Below, piece after piece: positions 31,456-37,590 of a stretch of DNA of 64,000 nt. The notes beneath the pieces were generated by a model. It ran no database searches and was not told where the DNA came from. It saw only the letters and a list, made by a program, of their open reading frames with translations. Numbering within the stretch: position 1 is the first letter of the stretch; each line of letters opens with the position of its first letter. Source of the stretch: an endosymbiont of unidentified scaly snail isolate Monju (GTDB taxonomy: Bacteria > Pseudomonadota > Gammaproteobacteria > Chromatiales > Chromatiaceae); contig NZ_AP012978.1 of assembly GCF_000801295.1 (NCBI RefSeq), forward strand, positions 2,277,001-2,341,000, read 5' to 3'. Made by a program: the position numbers and the translations under genes.

Positions 31456-31743
31456 ATGATCACACAATACGACATGGGCACAGGCCAGCCGATCGAGTTC
31501 CCCGGACAGCGCAGGAACCGAGAGGCACCCATCACGCTGGATGCACGCATCACCCCGGCTGTAGCGCTGCAAGCCCGGGAGGAGGAGCCCGCGCAGCGGG
31601 GCCTGCCAGCCGACCTGCTCACGGCCGATGCCGGCAGTTTCGTGAGCACACAGTCCCCGGCGCTACCGCTCAGTCTGCGGCCAACTCCACCTGCACTCGT
31701 CCCTCGCGCACCGCGACCGGCAGGGCCTGCAGAGACTGGTTGA
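31456..31743 (+). CDS. Possible small hypothetical protein overlapping the Rieske gene
   Basis: An ATG with GGAGG upstream opens a 95-residue frame beginning MITQYDMGTGQPIEFPGQRR. The N-terminal half looks protein-like. The C-terminal 25 residues lie antisense to the Rieske gene end and are Pro/Ala-rich, probably not selected. No family recognised. Confidence 0.4.
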   Translation: MITQYDMGTGQPIEFPGQRRNREAPITLDARITPAVALQAREEEPAQRGLPADLLTADAGSFVSTQSPALPLSLRPTPPALVPRAPRPAGPAETG

Positions 31744-32005
31744 CGCAGGGGCCGCGCAGGCAGAGGCCGTCACGCACCCGAAACAGGGCCCCGTGAATGG
31801 CGCACTGGATAAAGCTGTTGTCCATGTCGAGGAACTGGTGCGGCTGCCATTCCAGGGGGGCCCCGGTATGCGGGCAACGATTGCGGTAGGCGCGCACCTC
31901 TCCGTCCTTGCGGACCACGAAGAAGGCCTGGCCTTCGTGATCGAACCCCCGGGCCCCGGGGTCGGGGATGGCCTCCAGCGGGCCGGCATCGAACCAACGG
32001 CTCAT
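31670..32005 (-). CDS. Rieske [2Fe-2S] protein
   Basis: This 111-residue protein carries both Rieske cluster motifs, CPHTGAPL (C-x-H) and CAIHGALF (C-x2-H), spaced by about 18 residues. It is short and lacks a signal or membrane segment, so it is a soluble ferredoxin-like Rieske protein rather than the cytochrome bc1 subunit. Its ATG overlaps the stop of the sugar-kinase gene (ATGA), suggesting a common transcript. Confidence 0.88.
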   Translation of the reverse strand: MSRWFDAGPLEAIPDPGARGFDHEGQAFFVVRKDGEVRAYRNRCPHTGAPLEWQPHQFLDMDNSFIQCAIHGALFRVRDGLCLRGPCVNQSLQALPVAVREGRVQVELAAD

Positions 32006-32850
32006 GTCGCCAGCTCCAGCCCCGGCCGCCCGCACTGCTCGCCGGCCAGGCGCACTGCGCAGGCCAGCGCCAGATCCAGGTCATCGAACATGGCCAGGCC
32101 GTGCAGCATCCCGGCGTTGAACACGTCACCCGCTCCCAAGGTATCGACTACCTCCGGCGGCAAATGCGCCGGCAGGTACCGAACCTCCCCTTCGCCATCG
32201 CGCGCCCAGGCCCCGTGTTGCCCCCAGGTGCAGGTCGCCACCACCCCGCTGGGCAGCGAACGCAGGAATTCGGCAGGGTCGGCATGGCCATGGTGCCGCA
32301 GGTAATGGTGCGAGAACAGCAGCAGATCGGCCTGCCCGAACAGGGCCTCGATGCCCTCACGCGGCTTCTCGACCTCGAGCGAGACCGGTACCCCGGCCTC
32401 TCGCACCCGGCGAATCATCACCTGGAGCTGATCGACCGCCCGTCCCTCGAAATGCACGCGGTCGAAAGCGCCCGGATCGAGCGTCACGAAGGCTGCCGCC
32501 GAATACTCGGGCAGGTCGCGGTAGTGAACGATGGTACGACTGCCGCTCCCGGCGAGGGTGATGCAGGAAACGGGGAGATCATGGCCGGGAATACGGCAGG
32601 CCGACGCATGCGCCACCCCGTGACGATCGAAGGTCCGTTCGGCGAGCCGACTGGCCGGTCCCTCACCCAGGTTGCCTGTCCAGCTCACCTGGTGGCCCAG
32701 TTGCGCCAGCACCACTGCGGTATTGGCGGCATTGCCACCGGTACGCCAGGACTGTGCGCTGGCACGCACCTCATCGTCCTCGGCGGGGTAGCGTTCGACG
32801 TGACTGACGATATCGAGCGTGGCGATGCCCACGCACAGTATGCGGGCCAT
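32002..32850 (-). CDS. PfkB family carbohydrate kinase
   Basis: This 282-residue kinase has the PfkB N-terminal pattern GGNAANTAVVLAQLG with bound-sugar contacts, and the ATP/anion-hole signature DTLGAGDVFNAGMLHG with catalytic Asp near residue 243. It begins MARILCVGIATLDIVSHVERYP. It resembles ketohexokinase-type members of the ribokinase family. The substrate sugar is not clear. It is followed by the overlapping Rieske gene. Confidence 0.88.
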   Translation of the reverse strand: MARILCVGIATLDIVSHVERYPAEDDEVRASAQSWRTGGNAANTAVVLAQLGHQVSWTGNLGEGPASRLAERTFDRHGVAHASACRIPGHDLPVSCITLAGSGSRTIVHYRDLPEYSAAAFVTLDPGAFDRVHFEGRAVDQLQVMIRRVREAGVPVSLEVEKPREGIEALFGQADLLLFSHHYLRHHGHADPAEFLRSLPSGVVATCTWGQHGAWARDGEGEVRYLPAHLPPEVVDTLGAGDVFNAGMLHGLAMFDDLDLALACAVRLAGEQCGRPGLELAT

Positions 32851-32866: not shown

Positions 32867-35800
32867 CTATTTTCCGAGCAGTTCGAACAGGCCGCCGATC
32901 AGTTCTCCGCGCCCGGCGAGGAAGGAAAGCCCCTCCAGCAACGCCAGGGTGGCGCCACTGCCGATGAGGATAGAGATCAGGCGCGAGCTCCAGGTTCCGT
33001 TCCATACCGTATCGATGTCCAGCGGCACCTTGCCGCCGCGCACCCGCTCGTCGCGCAGGTCCTCGACCTTGACCTGCTCGATCTCTTCCTGGAAACGCTT
33101 GAGCTCCTGCTGCAACTGGATTCGCGCCTTCTCGGCCTCTTCGGCATGGAACACGGCCTCCTCGGTCTCCACCGTCAGGCGGTCGAGCTCACGCCGCATG
33201 CGATCGAGCTCGGTATTGGCATCTTCGAGGGCGTCTTCGAGCAACTGCCGGCTCTCTTCGGCCGAGGCCAGGTCATGCTGGCGTTCTTCCAGCGCACGCC
33301 GCACGTCGTGCAGTTCCTGGCGCATGGCCTCAAGATCGGCAACACCCGATTGTTCCGAGCAGGAATCGTCGTCCAGGCGATCGATCTGCTCCCTTGCTGC
33401 GGCCAGTTGTTCACGCAGGTGGGCGATCTCGCGCTCGGACTCCTCGCGCAACACGGCCATTTCGCTCTTCAGGGCCTCAAGCTGTTCCAGCTCACCGAAT
33501 TTTGCCTGGGTGATCCGTTCCACGTAGGTTTCCATCACGCTGCGCAGTTCCCGTACTTCGTCCTCGCGCGCCGCCAGCGCTTCGGCCAGGGACTGCCTTT
33601 CCTGCTCGAGCCCGGCCGCCGCATCGCGCAGCCTCGCCAATTCATCGCGCAAACTATCCTCGCTCCCGTCCTTTTGATCAAGCGCGGCCTGCGCCTCCTC
33701 GATCTGACGCTGCAATTGTGCAATCTGCGCCTCGCGCTCTTCATCCCGTTGCAAATCCTGCTGCGACCAGGAAAGACGTTCCTGCAGCGATTCGGCCTCT
33801 TCGGCAGAGACCATCAACGCCTCGTGCAACTCCCGCAGTTCGGCTTCCAGCGCGGCAACCTGCTCCCCCTGCTCATCGGTCTCCTCGGCCAGCCGCTGTT
33901 CCATTTCCTCCAGGCGGGCACGAAGCCGCCTGATCTCGGCCGCCGAACGTTCGATCTCCTCGTCGCGGTCCGAGAGGCGCTCTCTGGCCTGTTGCAGCTC
34001 CCGTTCCAGCATCTGGGCGAGCTCCTCTGCATAGGCCGTGCGTTCCTGCAAGGCGGCGGCACGTTCGTCGGTGGCCTCTGCCGCCTCGCGCCATTGGCCG
34101 GCTTCGGCCAGTTGCTGCTGCAAGGCCTCGGTTTCCTTCGTCTTCTGCGCCAGGGCCTCTTCCAGTTCCGCAACCCGATTCCCAACCTCGGCCTGCTCTG
34201 CCGCCATACCGGCCTGCTGCGCGAGCTGCGCGCGCAGGCTATCCAGTTCGGCTTGCAGGGACTCGACGGCAGCCGCCTTCTCTTCCTCTGCCTTTTCCAG
34301 TTCGGCACGCAGGCCTTCAGCGGCCCTTTCCCGTTCGGCGAGCGCCTGCTCCAACGTCGTCACCTGTAAGCGGGCCTGTTCGAGCACCTCGGGATCGATC
34401 GCCTGTTCGCAGGCCTCTTGCAGGGCCTGCTCCAGTTCGGCGACACGCGCTTCCGCCTGTTCGGCACGCCCTTGCCAGGCCAGCGCCTCGCCACGCAGTT
34501 GCGCAACTTCCTGCTCACGGGCCAGGACGGTGTCGTTCAACGCCTCGAGCTGCGCCTGCAAGGCAGCGTGCTGTTCGCGCTCTTCGGCCAGGGCCTGTTG
34601 CAGTTCGGCGGCCGCGGCCTCACTGGCCTCGAACTTCAACTGCCACTCGCGCAGCTCGCCGGCGATACGACCCTCTGCGTCGGCGGTCTCCTGCTGGGCG
34701 AGGCGCAGCTCCTCGAGCTCTACCTGGGCCTGCTCGAGGTCCAAGCGCAGGGTGGTGATCTCCTCCTTGAGCTCGCCGGTCTCGCGCGCATGCTGTTCAC
34801 GCTCGGCCTCACGCTCCGCCATCACCGCATTGAGCCGCTCGCCGATCTCTTCGAGGGCCTCGCTGGCCGACTCGGCACGCTCGCGCTCGCCCACCAATTC
34901 ACGCTCGACCTTTTCCAACCGGGCCTGGAGCTTCTGATCGAGCCCCTCGATCTCGCGCATGCGCTCAGCCAGCTCGGTGCGCTCGGACTCGAGCCTTTCC
35001 AGCGTCGAGGTCAGGGCCTCCATCTCCTCGTAGGCCTTCTGGCGCTCGGCCAGTGCGGCCTGGCGCTCCTGCTCGCTGGCCTGCAGGCGTGCGCGCGCCT
35101 GATCCACCACGACCTTCACCGCCTGGAGCTGTTCCTGCTTCTGCTGCTGGGCCCCCTGCACCGTGGCCTCGGCGACCTTCAGTCGCTGCTCCAGCTCGCG
35201 TGCGCGCTGCTCGGCCTCGAGCACCCGGCGGCGCAACTCGGAGCTCTCCTGCAACTGCTCGTCGGATGAAGAACGCGGCACATCGGGAGCCGGCGGCAGG
35301 TTTTCCACGGGTTGCTCGGCACGCAGGCGATCGAGGCCACCCTCCAGTATCGAGACCTCGAAGCCCTGGTCGATCATCAGGAAGGCGGCCACCCCGGCAC
35401 GACCGCCGCTGTTGCTGTAGAGCACGTAATGGCGGTCCGGCGCCAGGCTGGAGAGCTGATAACGCAAGGACTCCACGGGCACATTGATGCTGCCGGGGAA
35501 GTGGTCGGCCTCGTACTCCTCGGGAGCACGCAGGTCCACCCAGACCGCGCCCTGGTCGACCTTGCGTACCGCCTCGTCGAAATCGATGCGGGTGGACAGC
35601 GGGGTGCGGATCAGTTCGATGAACTGCTGCTTGGCCAGGCGCAGCACCTGACCGTTACTGAGCATGCTGACCGTGGAGTTGCGCGGCCGATCGGAGAGAA
35701 GCGCTTCTTCGCCAAAGGCATCGCCCGGCCCCAGCCGCGCCAGTTCTACCGACTCGCCCCCCTCCTGCTCACGGCGCACCACGGCCTGGCCCTGGATGAG

Positions 35801-36376
35801 CATGTAGAAGTAATCGCCCGGGTCCCCCTGGCGGATGATGTCCTGCCCCTTGGACACCTCCACCTGCTCGACACTCATCATCACGCGCTGGATGTTGGAT
35901 GCCGGCAGCTGCTGCAACACCCGGCAGCGCAGGAGCAGGCTCATCCAGTCGTCGGCGTCGCCCTCCTCGAGTTCATCGACCTGATAATCGACGCTGTGGG
36001 TGCGTGCCAGCAGTTCGCTGATGCGGCGGCTGTCGAGACGGGCCACGCGAATCCGCCCGGCGGCCCGGGCCGTCATCTTGCGCGGCAGCACGTGGGCCAC
36101 CGGGAAGCGGGCATGTTCGGACCCGGCCTCGAGCATGTCGGCGACCTTCTCGCCGGTGAGCAGGGCCACCTTGCCCTCGAGCAGGTAGAAACTGACGTGA
36201 TCGGTGTCTCCCTGCCGGAACAGCAGCTCCCCCTTGCCCAGTTCTTCCACCACCAGGTCGTCGAGCAGCTCGTTGAAGATCTCGTCCGGCAGGGTGTGCA
36301 GGGGCACGACGTTGCGCAGGATGGCGATATCGCGGTTGGTGTACTTGCCGGGCTTCAGGGGATTCACGGATGCCAT
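32867..36376 (-). CDS. Large multidomain protein: two cyclic-nucleotide-binding domains, degenerate rhodanese, long coiled coil, C-terminal membrane segment
   Basis: This is a 1169-residue protein. Residues ~25-120 and ~150-255 are cNMP-binding domains; the second has GDPGDYFYMLIQGQAVV and PGDAFGEEALLSDRPRNSTV with the phosphate-binding cassette. Residues ~262-355 are a rhodanese domain (WVDLRAPEEYEADHFPGSIN) whose catalytic Cys is Ser321 (YSNSGGR). From ~370 to ~1115 is uninterrupted heptad-rich Glu/Gln/Ala/Leu coiled coil. Near the C-terminus are two hydrophobic stretches (LISILIGSGATLALLEGLSF and GGLFELLG), a likely tail anchor. Ligand and function are unknown; a cyclic-nucleotide-sensing scaffold at the membrane is an inference. 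Confidence 0.85.
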   Translation of the reverse strand: MASVNPLKPGKYTNRDIAILRNVVPLHTLPDEIFNELLDDLVVEELGKGELLFRQGDTDHVSFYLLEGKVALLTGEKVADMLEAGSEHARFPVAHVLPRKMTARAAGRIRVARLDSRRISELLARTHSVDYQVDELEEGDADDWMSLLLRCRVLQQLPASNIQRVMMSVEQVEVSKGQDIIRQGDPGDYFYMLIQGQAVVRREQEGGESVELARLGPGDAFGEEALLSDRPRNSTVSMLSNGQVLRLAKQQFIELIRTPLSTRIDFDEAVRKVDQGAVWVDLRAPEEYEADHFPGSINVPVESLRYQLSSLAPDRHYVLYSNSGGRAGVAAFLMIDQGFEVSILEGGLDRLRAEQPVENLPPAPDVPRSSSDEQLQESSELRRRVLEAEQRARELEQRLKVAEATVQGAQQQKQEQLQAVKVVVDQARARLQASEQERQAALAERQKAYEEMEALTSTLERLESERTELAERMREIEGLDQKLQARLEKVERELVGERERAESASEALEEIGERLNAVMAEREAEREQHARETGELKEEITTLRLDLEQAQVELEELRLAQQETADAEGRIAGELREWQLKFEASEAAAAELQQALAEEREQHAALQAQLEALNDTVLAREQEVAQLRGEALAWQGRAEQAEARVAELEQALQEACEQAIDPEVLEQARLQVTTLEQALAERERAAEGLRAELEKAEEEKAAAVESLQAELDSLRAQLAQQAGMAAEQAEVGNRVAELEEALAQKTKETEALQQQLAEAGQWREAAEATDERAAALQERTAYAEELAQMLERELQQARERLSDRDEEIERSAAEIRRLRARLEEMEQRLAEETDEQGEQVAALEAELRELHEALMVSAEEAESLQERLSWSQQDLQRDEEREAQIAQLQRQIEEAQAALDQKDGSEDSLRDELARLRDAAAGLEQERQSLAEALAAREDEVRELRSVMETYVERITQAKFGELEQLEALKSEMAVLREESEREIAHLREQLAAAREQIDRLDDDSCSEQSGVADLEAMRQELHDVRRALEERQHDLASAEESRQLLEDALEDANTELDRMRRELDRLTVETEEAVFHAEEAEKARIQLQQELKRFQEEIEQVKVEDLRDERVRGGKVPLDIDTVWNGTWSSRLISILIGSGATLALLEGLSFLAGRGELIGGLFELLGK

Positions 36377-36401: not shown

Positions 36402-36980
36402 TCATCCGGGATTATCGGCCGCGAGCAACGCCTTCTTGAGGGAGCCGGTCACAGGTTCCGGCCCCAGCCAGATCGCCAGCAGGGCCGCATTGAAATCGTC
36501 GCCGGGAACCAGCCCCTGTACCTCGCCGTTGATGCTCACCCGGGTGCCCTCGCCGGGCAGATGTTCCAGCCAGACCTCGTCACCCTCGCGCAGCGTCCTG
36601 AACATCGCCTTGAACTGTTCGATTCTCGGCACCAGTGCCTGATAGCGCGCCGTATCCAGGTTGGCGCGAAAGCCATCTTCCCAGGCAGCGTTCAACTTGT
36701 CGCGGGAGACCTCGTCGTAGACGAAGTGCATGACCACCCGGTTGGGCGGCGGATCGGCCAGCAAGACCTCGGCACGCGATTCCGGTGCGGGAAGGTACAG
36801 GCCGGCCACGTAGATCTTGAAAATGAACTTGTAACGGATGCCCGCACCGTTCAGGCGCAAGGGCTGGACAATGCCGTCCACGCGCACTTCGGCCGGCAGC
36901 GTGACGCCGGCCAGTTCGACCGCCGCAACCGGCACGGTGGCGCCGGACAGCAGCATGGCCGCCAGCAGGATCCAGCGCAT
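36402..36980 (-). CDS. Chalcone isomerase-like protein, exported
   Basis: This 192-residue protein has a signal peptide (MRWILLAAMLLSGATVPVAA). The core VDGIVQPLRLNGAGIRYKFI and KIYVAGLYLPAPESRAEVLL matches bacterial chalcone-isomerase-like proteins, as does HFVYDEVSRDKLNAAWEDGF. These have the chalcone isomerase fold but are probably not flavonoid enzymes. The true role is unknown. AGGAGGAAC precedes the ATG at 36980. Confidence 0.85.
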   Translation of the reverse strand: MRWILLAAMLLSGATVPVAAVELAGVTLPAEVRVDGIVQPLRLNGAGIRYKFIFKIYVAGLYLPAPESRAEVLLADPPPNRVVMHFVYDEVSRDKLNAAWEDGFRANLDTARYQALVPRIEQFKAMFRTLREGDEVWLEHLPGEGTRVSINGEVQGLVPGDDFNAALLAIWLGPEPVTGSLKKALLAADNPG

Positions 36981-37194
36981 CGTTCCTCCTCCTCGAAAAT
37001 AACGGTGCACAAACATCAGCCACCTCTGCCCTCTAATGTACTAGTTCATTTGTTGGGCAAGCGCGACACGTTACCCCGTAATCAAGGGGATTTTTGCGAA
37101 CCTCTCAACAAAAAAGCCGCCCGGCATTGTTCAGCACCATTTTTTTCTGTGCTATGTTTCGAACGCTTTTCCACCAAACAGCAGGAGTCGAAAC

Positions 37195-37590
37195 ATGGCA
37201 GTCAAGAAAAAGGCCGCTAAGAAAAAGGCGGTCAAGAAGGCAGCTGCAGCTGCACCCGCGAAGAAGATCAAGGCCATCACCAAGAAGATGACCAAGACCC
37301 AGATCGTCACCCATATCGCCGAGTCCACCGGCCTGTCGAAGAAACAGGTGGCCGAGGTATTCTCCGAACTGGGCGACCTGATCACCGCGCACATGAAGCG
37401 CCGCGGCTCCGGCGAGTTCACCATCCCCGACACCGGCGTCAAGATCCGCCGCGTGAAAAAGCCTGCGCGCAAGGCCCGCATGGGCCGCAACCCGGCCACT
37501 GGCGAGCCGATGAAGATCCCGGCCAAGCCGGCATCCACCACGGTGCGGGTCACCGCGCTGAAGGCGCTCAAGGAAACGATCAACAGCTGA
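37195..37590 (+). CDS. HU/IHF-like DNA-binding protein with Lys/Ala-rich N-terminal extension
   Basis: This 131-residue protein has an N-terminal ~28-residue basic arm (MAVKKKAAKKKAVKKAAAAA...) and then an HU-type domain: MTKTQIVTHIAESTGLSKKQ, VAEVFSELGDLITAHMKR and the DNA-binding beta arm KPARKARMGRNPATGEPM with the conserved RNPxTG. It should bend or coat DNA. The extension resembles histone H1-like tails. It stands alone and ends in a clear terminator. Confidence 0.92.
   Translation: MAVKKKAAKKKAVKKAAAAAPAKKIKAITKKMTKTQIVTHIAESTGLSKKQVAEVFSELGDLITAHMKRRGSGEFTIPDTGVKIRRVKKPARKARMGRNPATGEPMKIPAKPASTTVRVTALKALKETINS

Follow-up and report, generated by a model that had tools for sequence, protein, structure and literature searches.

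A membrane-anchored tandem-cNMP protein with a conserved, cysteine-less rhodanese domain: a candidate cAMP effector from a widespread gammaproteobacterial family

Among solved structures, the best sequence matches to the protein described here are the type I regulatory subunit of PKA and PKG (PDB 5jr7, 5dyk), both of which combine tandem cNMP domains with a PKA-type cassette. The PKA regulatory subunit also carries an inhibitor sequence that binds the kinase catalytic subunit. CbpA of P. aeruginosa (PA4704) reportedly pairs a degenerate N-terminal with an active C-terminal cNMP domain in a PKA-R-like manner, according to its abstract, and is not known to possess a membrane anchor, a rhodanese, or a coiled coil. 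According to reviews, most bacteria have CRP as their sole cAMP effector, with CbpA listed as an exception, that is, as a cAMP receptor distinct from CRP (PMC11139211, PMC7247823). A further paper describes CbpA as a polar protein of unknown function (PMC3019171). For the rhodanese domain, the proteins to compare are PspE and GlpE, which are single-domain rhodaneses, and CoA-persulfide reductase with its own rhodanese (PDB 8a56).

The gene under study lies in a 64,000-nucleotide stretch of DNA, hereafter the window. The 1169 residues given in the preliminary description are encoded by one complete open reading frame that starts with ATG. Its features and neighbours are as follows:

32867..36376, minus strand: whole gene, 1169 aa; tandem cNMP domains, rhodanese, coiled coil, and C-terminal membrane anchor (ORF, Pfam, alignment)
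36002..36247, minus strand: cNMP domain 1 (residues 44–125), degenerate, without phosphate-binding cassette (weaker Pfam cNMP match, alignment)
35606..35863, minus strand: cNMP domain 2 (residues 172–257), PKA/PKG-like (stronger Pfam cNMP match)
35669..35716, minus strand: phosphate-binding cassette FGEEALLSDRPRNSTV of cNMP domain 2 (residues 221–236; alignment)
35327..35578, minus strand: rhodanese domain (residues 267–350), catalytic Cys replaced (Pfam, alignment)
35414..35416, minus strand: AGC codon of Ser321 at the catalytic-Cys position (genus alignment)
33068..35263, minus strand: predicted coiled coil (residues 372–1103), length variable among orthologues (composition and periodicity)
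32918..32980, minus strand: predicted C-terminal membrane helix (about residues 1133–1153), with the motif AGRGELIGGL and the stop codon after it (hydropathy)
36402..37016, minus strand: chalcone-isomerase-like protein, encoded 25 bp upstream; three further members of the genus (L040, L041, L043) have it next to the core gene too
32002..32850, minus strand: PfkB-family sugar kinase, 16 bp downstream; adjacency kept across many families
31670..32035, minus strand: Rieske 2Fe-2S protein, overlapping the PfkB ORF; adjacency kept across many families
37195..37590, plus strand: HU-like DNA-binding protein, divergent; adjacency kept across many families

The Pfam scan of the 1169-residue protein returned two cNMP_binding matches (E 6e-30) and one rhodanese match (E 2.4e-13), with nothing else above the cut-off. 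An N-terminus resembling MASVNP or MASVDP is present in five of the six aligned genus members. The gene occurs as a single full-length copy in a one-contig genome of 2.6 Mb. A sister genome, whose core is 92% identical, has the same gene with one large indel in the coiled coil that is in-frame, which excludes a mis-join. An assembly artefact that fused separate genes is thus ruled out by the single contig, the sister copy, and the conserved gene order.

Both cNMP domains of the preliminary description were recovered, and only the second has a binding cassette. In an alignment with 29 homologues (30–92% identity), G222 and R232 of this cassette are invariant and E223 is conserved in at least 90% of the sequences. 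Compared with PKA-R and PKG, the window protein has no kinase, its cNMP domain 1 is degenerate, a rhodanese follows the cNMP pair, and there is no known inhibitor segment; only 43 residues precede cNMP domain 1. An AlphaFold model of the cNMP-cNMP-rhodanese core, built on a two-row alignment, reached a pLDDT of 35.

Residues 372–1103 contain a single proline (662) and 14–29% glutamate per window of residues, and most 56-residue windows show a hydrophobic periodicity near 3.5. We therefore assign this segment to a coiled coil. The stretch of approximately 745 residues reported earlier thus comes to about 730 residues with heptad periodicity, and the suggested span on the order of 100 nm agrees with a computed length of ~109 nm (732 × 0.1485 nm, if fully extended). 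The hydrophobic C-terminus noted before corresponds to the one predicted membrane helix, with the membrane topology read from hydropathy alone.

The protein is one member of a large family. A core of ~350 residues comprising cNMP, cNMP, and rhodanese domains was detected in 170 of 370 Gammaproteobacteria, the genomes being drawn evenly from the class. It is rare in other Pseudomonadota: in a draw from the whole phylum, 17 of 299 genomes encode it, and 13 of these 17 belong to the window's own class. A plasmid search yielded partial, Crp-like matches only. The window protein aligns collinearly in 29 rows at 30–92% identity, matches the family profile with an E value of 4e-150, and has the family's Gly/Glu/Arg of the second cNMP domain as G222, E223, and R232. 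The architecture had previously been called unfamiliar as a whole, an impression that does not survive its presence in 46% of the sampled Gammaproteobacteria. A search of one literature library revealed no paper on the tandem-cNMP-rhodanese architecture and no described function for the family. The combination consists of known domains and is widespread, and it is apparently undescribed.

Sorting of 90 distinct cores gave four architectures. The first comprises stand-alone core proteins of 350–420 aa. In the second, a soluble core is joined to a coiled coil, often in neighbouring pairs. The third adds to core and coiled coil a membrane helix and a SUMF1/FGE-type domain (1178–2033 aa; PF03781 E values down to 1e-59). 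The fourth, which includes the window protein, has the first three of these elements and lacks SUMF1. This last, anchored form is a derived one. In the 26 SUMF1-bearing relatives, the C-terminal catalytic Cys of FGE (after RGG) was found in none; a CxxC motif is present in all 26, extended to NCxxC in 25. Since the FGE catalytic cysteines are missing throughout, the SUMF1 domain of these relatives is not a formylglycine-generating enzyme.

The genes around the long forms are also conserved. In many families, the long form has HU-like, PfkB, and Rieske genes on its flanks, which identifies the long forms as orthologues, and the window gene lies in the same HU/core gene/PfkB/Rieske-linked neighbourhood. 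The HU-like protein (37195–37590), divergent beside the long core gene in many families, has an N-terminal tail rich in Lys and Ala. Two genus members, G001 and G007, have neither the core gene nor the cluster's PfkB gene, and G007 is also devoid of class I and class III cyclases. A functional coupling to PfkB was considered on the basis of this co-loss and dismissed, as the association looks weak across relatives.

The membrane segment of the window protein points to its ancestry. A profile built from the last 52 residues of the genus members was searched against about two thousand ORFs. Its top matches, above all other ORFs, were the membrane segments of SUMF1-type orthologues from the window's own family (L044, L047, L048), as illustrated by LAEGLSFMGGGGELILGLF in L048 and LLEGLSFLAGRGELIGGLF in the window protein. 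In orthologues such as L044, L047, L052, and others, a PF03781 (SUMF1/FGE-sulfatase) domain follows the membrane helix, whereas the window protein has the homologous helix motif and lacks the domain; it is a derivative of the SUMF1-bearing form rather than a member. In the genus, then, the anchor has persisted and the outer domain has disappeared. These sequence comparisons are best explained if the window protein arose by truncation of an ancestor that spanned the membrane and carried a SUMF1-like domain on its extracytoplasmic side. We infer that whatever periplasmic input or output the ancestral form had was lost in the genus and the cytosolic function kept. A SUMF1 domain split off beside the gene is ruled out, because PfkB begins 16 bp downstream; other SUMF1 genes of the genome lie at other places. 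The SUMF1-type orthologue in L048 (1662–6349, genome G023) is broken into three reading frames of 962, 280, and 326 aa: the first encodes the core with coiled coil, the second coiled coil with the membrane helix, and the third the SUMF1 domain.

The rhodanese domain of the window protein matches PspE, GlpE, and the 8a56 rhodanese in family and loop position. In active PF00581 sulfurtransferases, the catalytic Cys is the first residue of the CX4R loop; in the window protein, this residue is Ser321 of the loop Y-S-N-S-G-G-R, so that, unlike these rhodaneses, the domain is not a sulfurtransferase by this measure. The only cysteines of the protein are at positions 151, 656, and 1006, and the rhodanese has none. 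The AGC codon and the YSNSGGR loop are identical in six of six genus members; most family members retain the Cys. A second clade (families f60, f68, and f110) likewise has a membrane helix, no SUMF1, and Ser, and occupies a separate, supported branch of the tree; three relatives from the window's own family have Gly at the Cys position. All nine relatives with a membrane helix and no SUMF1 carry Ser, which amounts to only two origins on the tree. A link between Cys loss and SUMF1 loss is therefore suggestive and not significant. Strict coupling was rejected, because one protein (L117) has lost the Cys and kept SUMF1, and with two or three independent origins significance is out of reach. In Ser-type proteins from other families (L138, L139, L140, L120), low-complexity tails of ~70–310 residues take the place of SUMF1 after the membrane helix, and three of these four tails are rich in Pro, Ala, and Glu.

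Selection on the domain was estimated from dN/dS against the sister genome, a single genome pair evaluated by a simple counting method. The rhodanese gave 0.033, the cNMP domains 0.087 and 0.167, and rod plus anchor about 0.25. Mean identity among the six genus members is 76% for the rhodanese versus 61% and 73% for the cNMP domains. In the Cys-bearing long orthologues of the family, by contrast, the rhodanese is the least conserved domain (45% identity vs. 46% and 61% for the cNMP domains). Being the most constrained domain, the Ser-type rhodanese is not decaying. It is thus highly improbable that the rhodanese is a decaying relic in an otherwise plain cNMP-controlled tether, as the missing catalytic Cys might indicate; the strongest constraint of all domains and the invariant YSNSGGR of six members contradict this idea. 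The natural reading of the constraint data, which are the strongest evidence on this point, is a cysteine-less rhodanese with a conserved, non-catalytic role, and the earlier proposal that the domain binds rather than transfers sulfur fits the missing Cys and the strong conservation. The window's lineage would then offer a natural case in which a rhodanese lost its nucleophile under high constraint and an enzyme domain apparently became a binding domain.

We regard it as distinctly unlikely that the protein instead senses sulfur or persulfide, with the rhodanese using another residue or binding persulfide or polysulfide non-covalently and so feeding the sulfur state into cAMP signalling. Such a function would suit the Cys kept by most family members and a fusion in genome G002, in which the core region is joined to a sulfur enzyme: the 916-aa protein (L057:6713–9460) contains a pyridine-nucleotide-disulfide oxidoreductase resembling CoA-disulfide/persulfide reductase, a rhodanese, a cNMP region, and a second rhodanese. 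It is at odds with the absence of any cysteine from the window's rhodanese, with Ser in six of six genus members, and with the separate loss of Cys in the second clade.

The segment after the core measures 542–1241 residues within the genus. This more than twofold spread rules out a molecular ruler of fixed length, and since the length changes freely among genus members, the rod looks like a tether. The same spread weighs against a structural rod, in which coiled coil and anchor would organise the envelope or the nucleoid and the cNMP-rhodanese head would do no more than cap the rod passively or serve in oligomerisation. Such a role is favoured by the coiled coil's share of two thirds of the protein, by the conserved divergent HU-like neighbour, and by the profile similarity of the rod to SMC-like coiled coils; the NCBIfam SMC/Rad50 matches are, however, far under the cut-off and were discounted, because any long coiled coil yields them. 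The rod is moreover the least constrained part (dN/dS about 0.25 vs. 0.03 in the rhodanese), and the head is conserved also in proteins without any rod. We therefore consider a structural rod unlikely.

The distribution of the core follows that of adenylate cyclases. In the class-wide set of 370 genomes, with kinship ignored apart from a collapse by family and class I enzymes counted, the core is present in 102 of 113 genomes with a class I cyclase and in 68 of 257 others (odds ratio 26, p = 4e-32). Collapsed by family, 45 of the 50 families with a class I cyclase include a genome that has both cyclase and core. Among 55 near genomes, where class III enzymes were counted as well, a class I or III cyclase occurs in all 27 with the full core versus 16 of 28 without it (p = 1e-4, kinship again ignored). 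Two genomes that are not related to each other have a stand-alone core gene at a distance of ~0.4 kb from a cyclase gene, of class I in G150 and of class III in G034. A cAMP effector would be expected to show this pattern, which at the level of gene content hints at such a function. c-di-AMP, listed earlier among ligands to try, found no support, and the cyclase co-occurrence supports cAMP.

CRP and a single adenylate cyclase gene, of class I, are present in the window's genome, and class III cyclases are absent from it. The class I gene, the only one of the genome, is frameshifted ~190 residues in (L146, G000:C1:95000-101000, around 2058). In the sister genome (L147) the gene reads through, so the frameshift is either a real loss or a sequencing error. 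The cAMP supply in the window's genome is therefore uncertain. This raises the alternative that cNMP domain 2 takes cGMP or a similar ligand, or senses without any ligand, which overlaps with the other alternatives discussed here. Besides the frameshifted cyclase, the 68 of 170 core genomes without a class I cyclase (class III not being counted class-wide) agree with it; the PKA type of the cassette and the strong association with class I cyclases, whose product is cAMP, do not. On balance, we find a ligand other than cAMP rather doubtful.

Taken from sequence, the window protein is somewhat more probably than otherwise a tail-anchored inner-membrane cAMP effector, in which a cNMP domain gates a non-catalytic, binding rhodanese; the signal-responsive scaffold of the preliminary description is in keeping with this anatomy. 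According to this model, cAMP bound to cNMP domain 2 would switch the neighbouring rhodanese from one partner-binding state to another. The rhodanese would act as a docking module for a protein partner, without sulfur transfer. The rod would form a parallel dimeric coiled coil that keeps the cytosolic N-terminal head at a distance of tens of nanometres from its anchor in the membrane, and a change in cAMP would recruit or release the partner at the membrane.

More tentatively, Gammaproteobacteria may have in the tandem-cNMP-rhodanese core a general cAMP receptor besides CRP, one that has been conserved together with CyaA. In the long forms, cytosolic cAMP would then be linked through the membrane to a SUMF1-like domain on the extracytoplasmic side, and in the window's genus this device would have become a one-sided tether and the rhodanese enzyme a binding module. 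With the family in nearly half of the sampled Gammaproteobacteria and in 90% of the genomes with a class I cyclase, the CRP-only view becomes testable. CbpA resembles the core in its cNMP layout, a likeness drawn from its description, and is a possible relative of the family. The prrF RNA lies beside the cbpA gene; an Rfam scan beside stand-alone cores for this RNA returned nothing.

Duplicated soluble proteins of core and coiled coil, of roughly 630–1290 aa, occur as divergent pairs in L111 and L112 and as same-strand pairs in L113 and L114. Most of these paired proteins end in a conserved motif like MKRIKxKAxxAKxxA...LLDEIAxxL.
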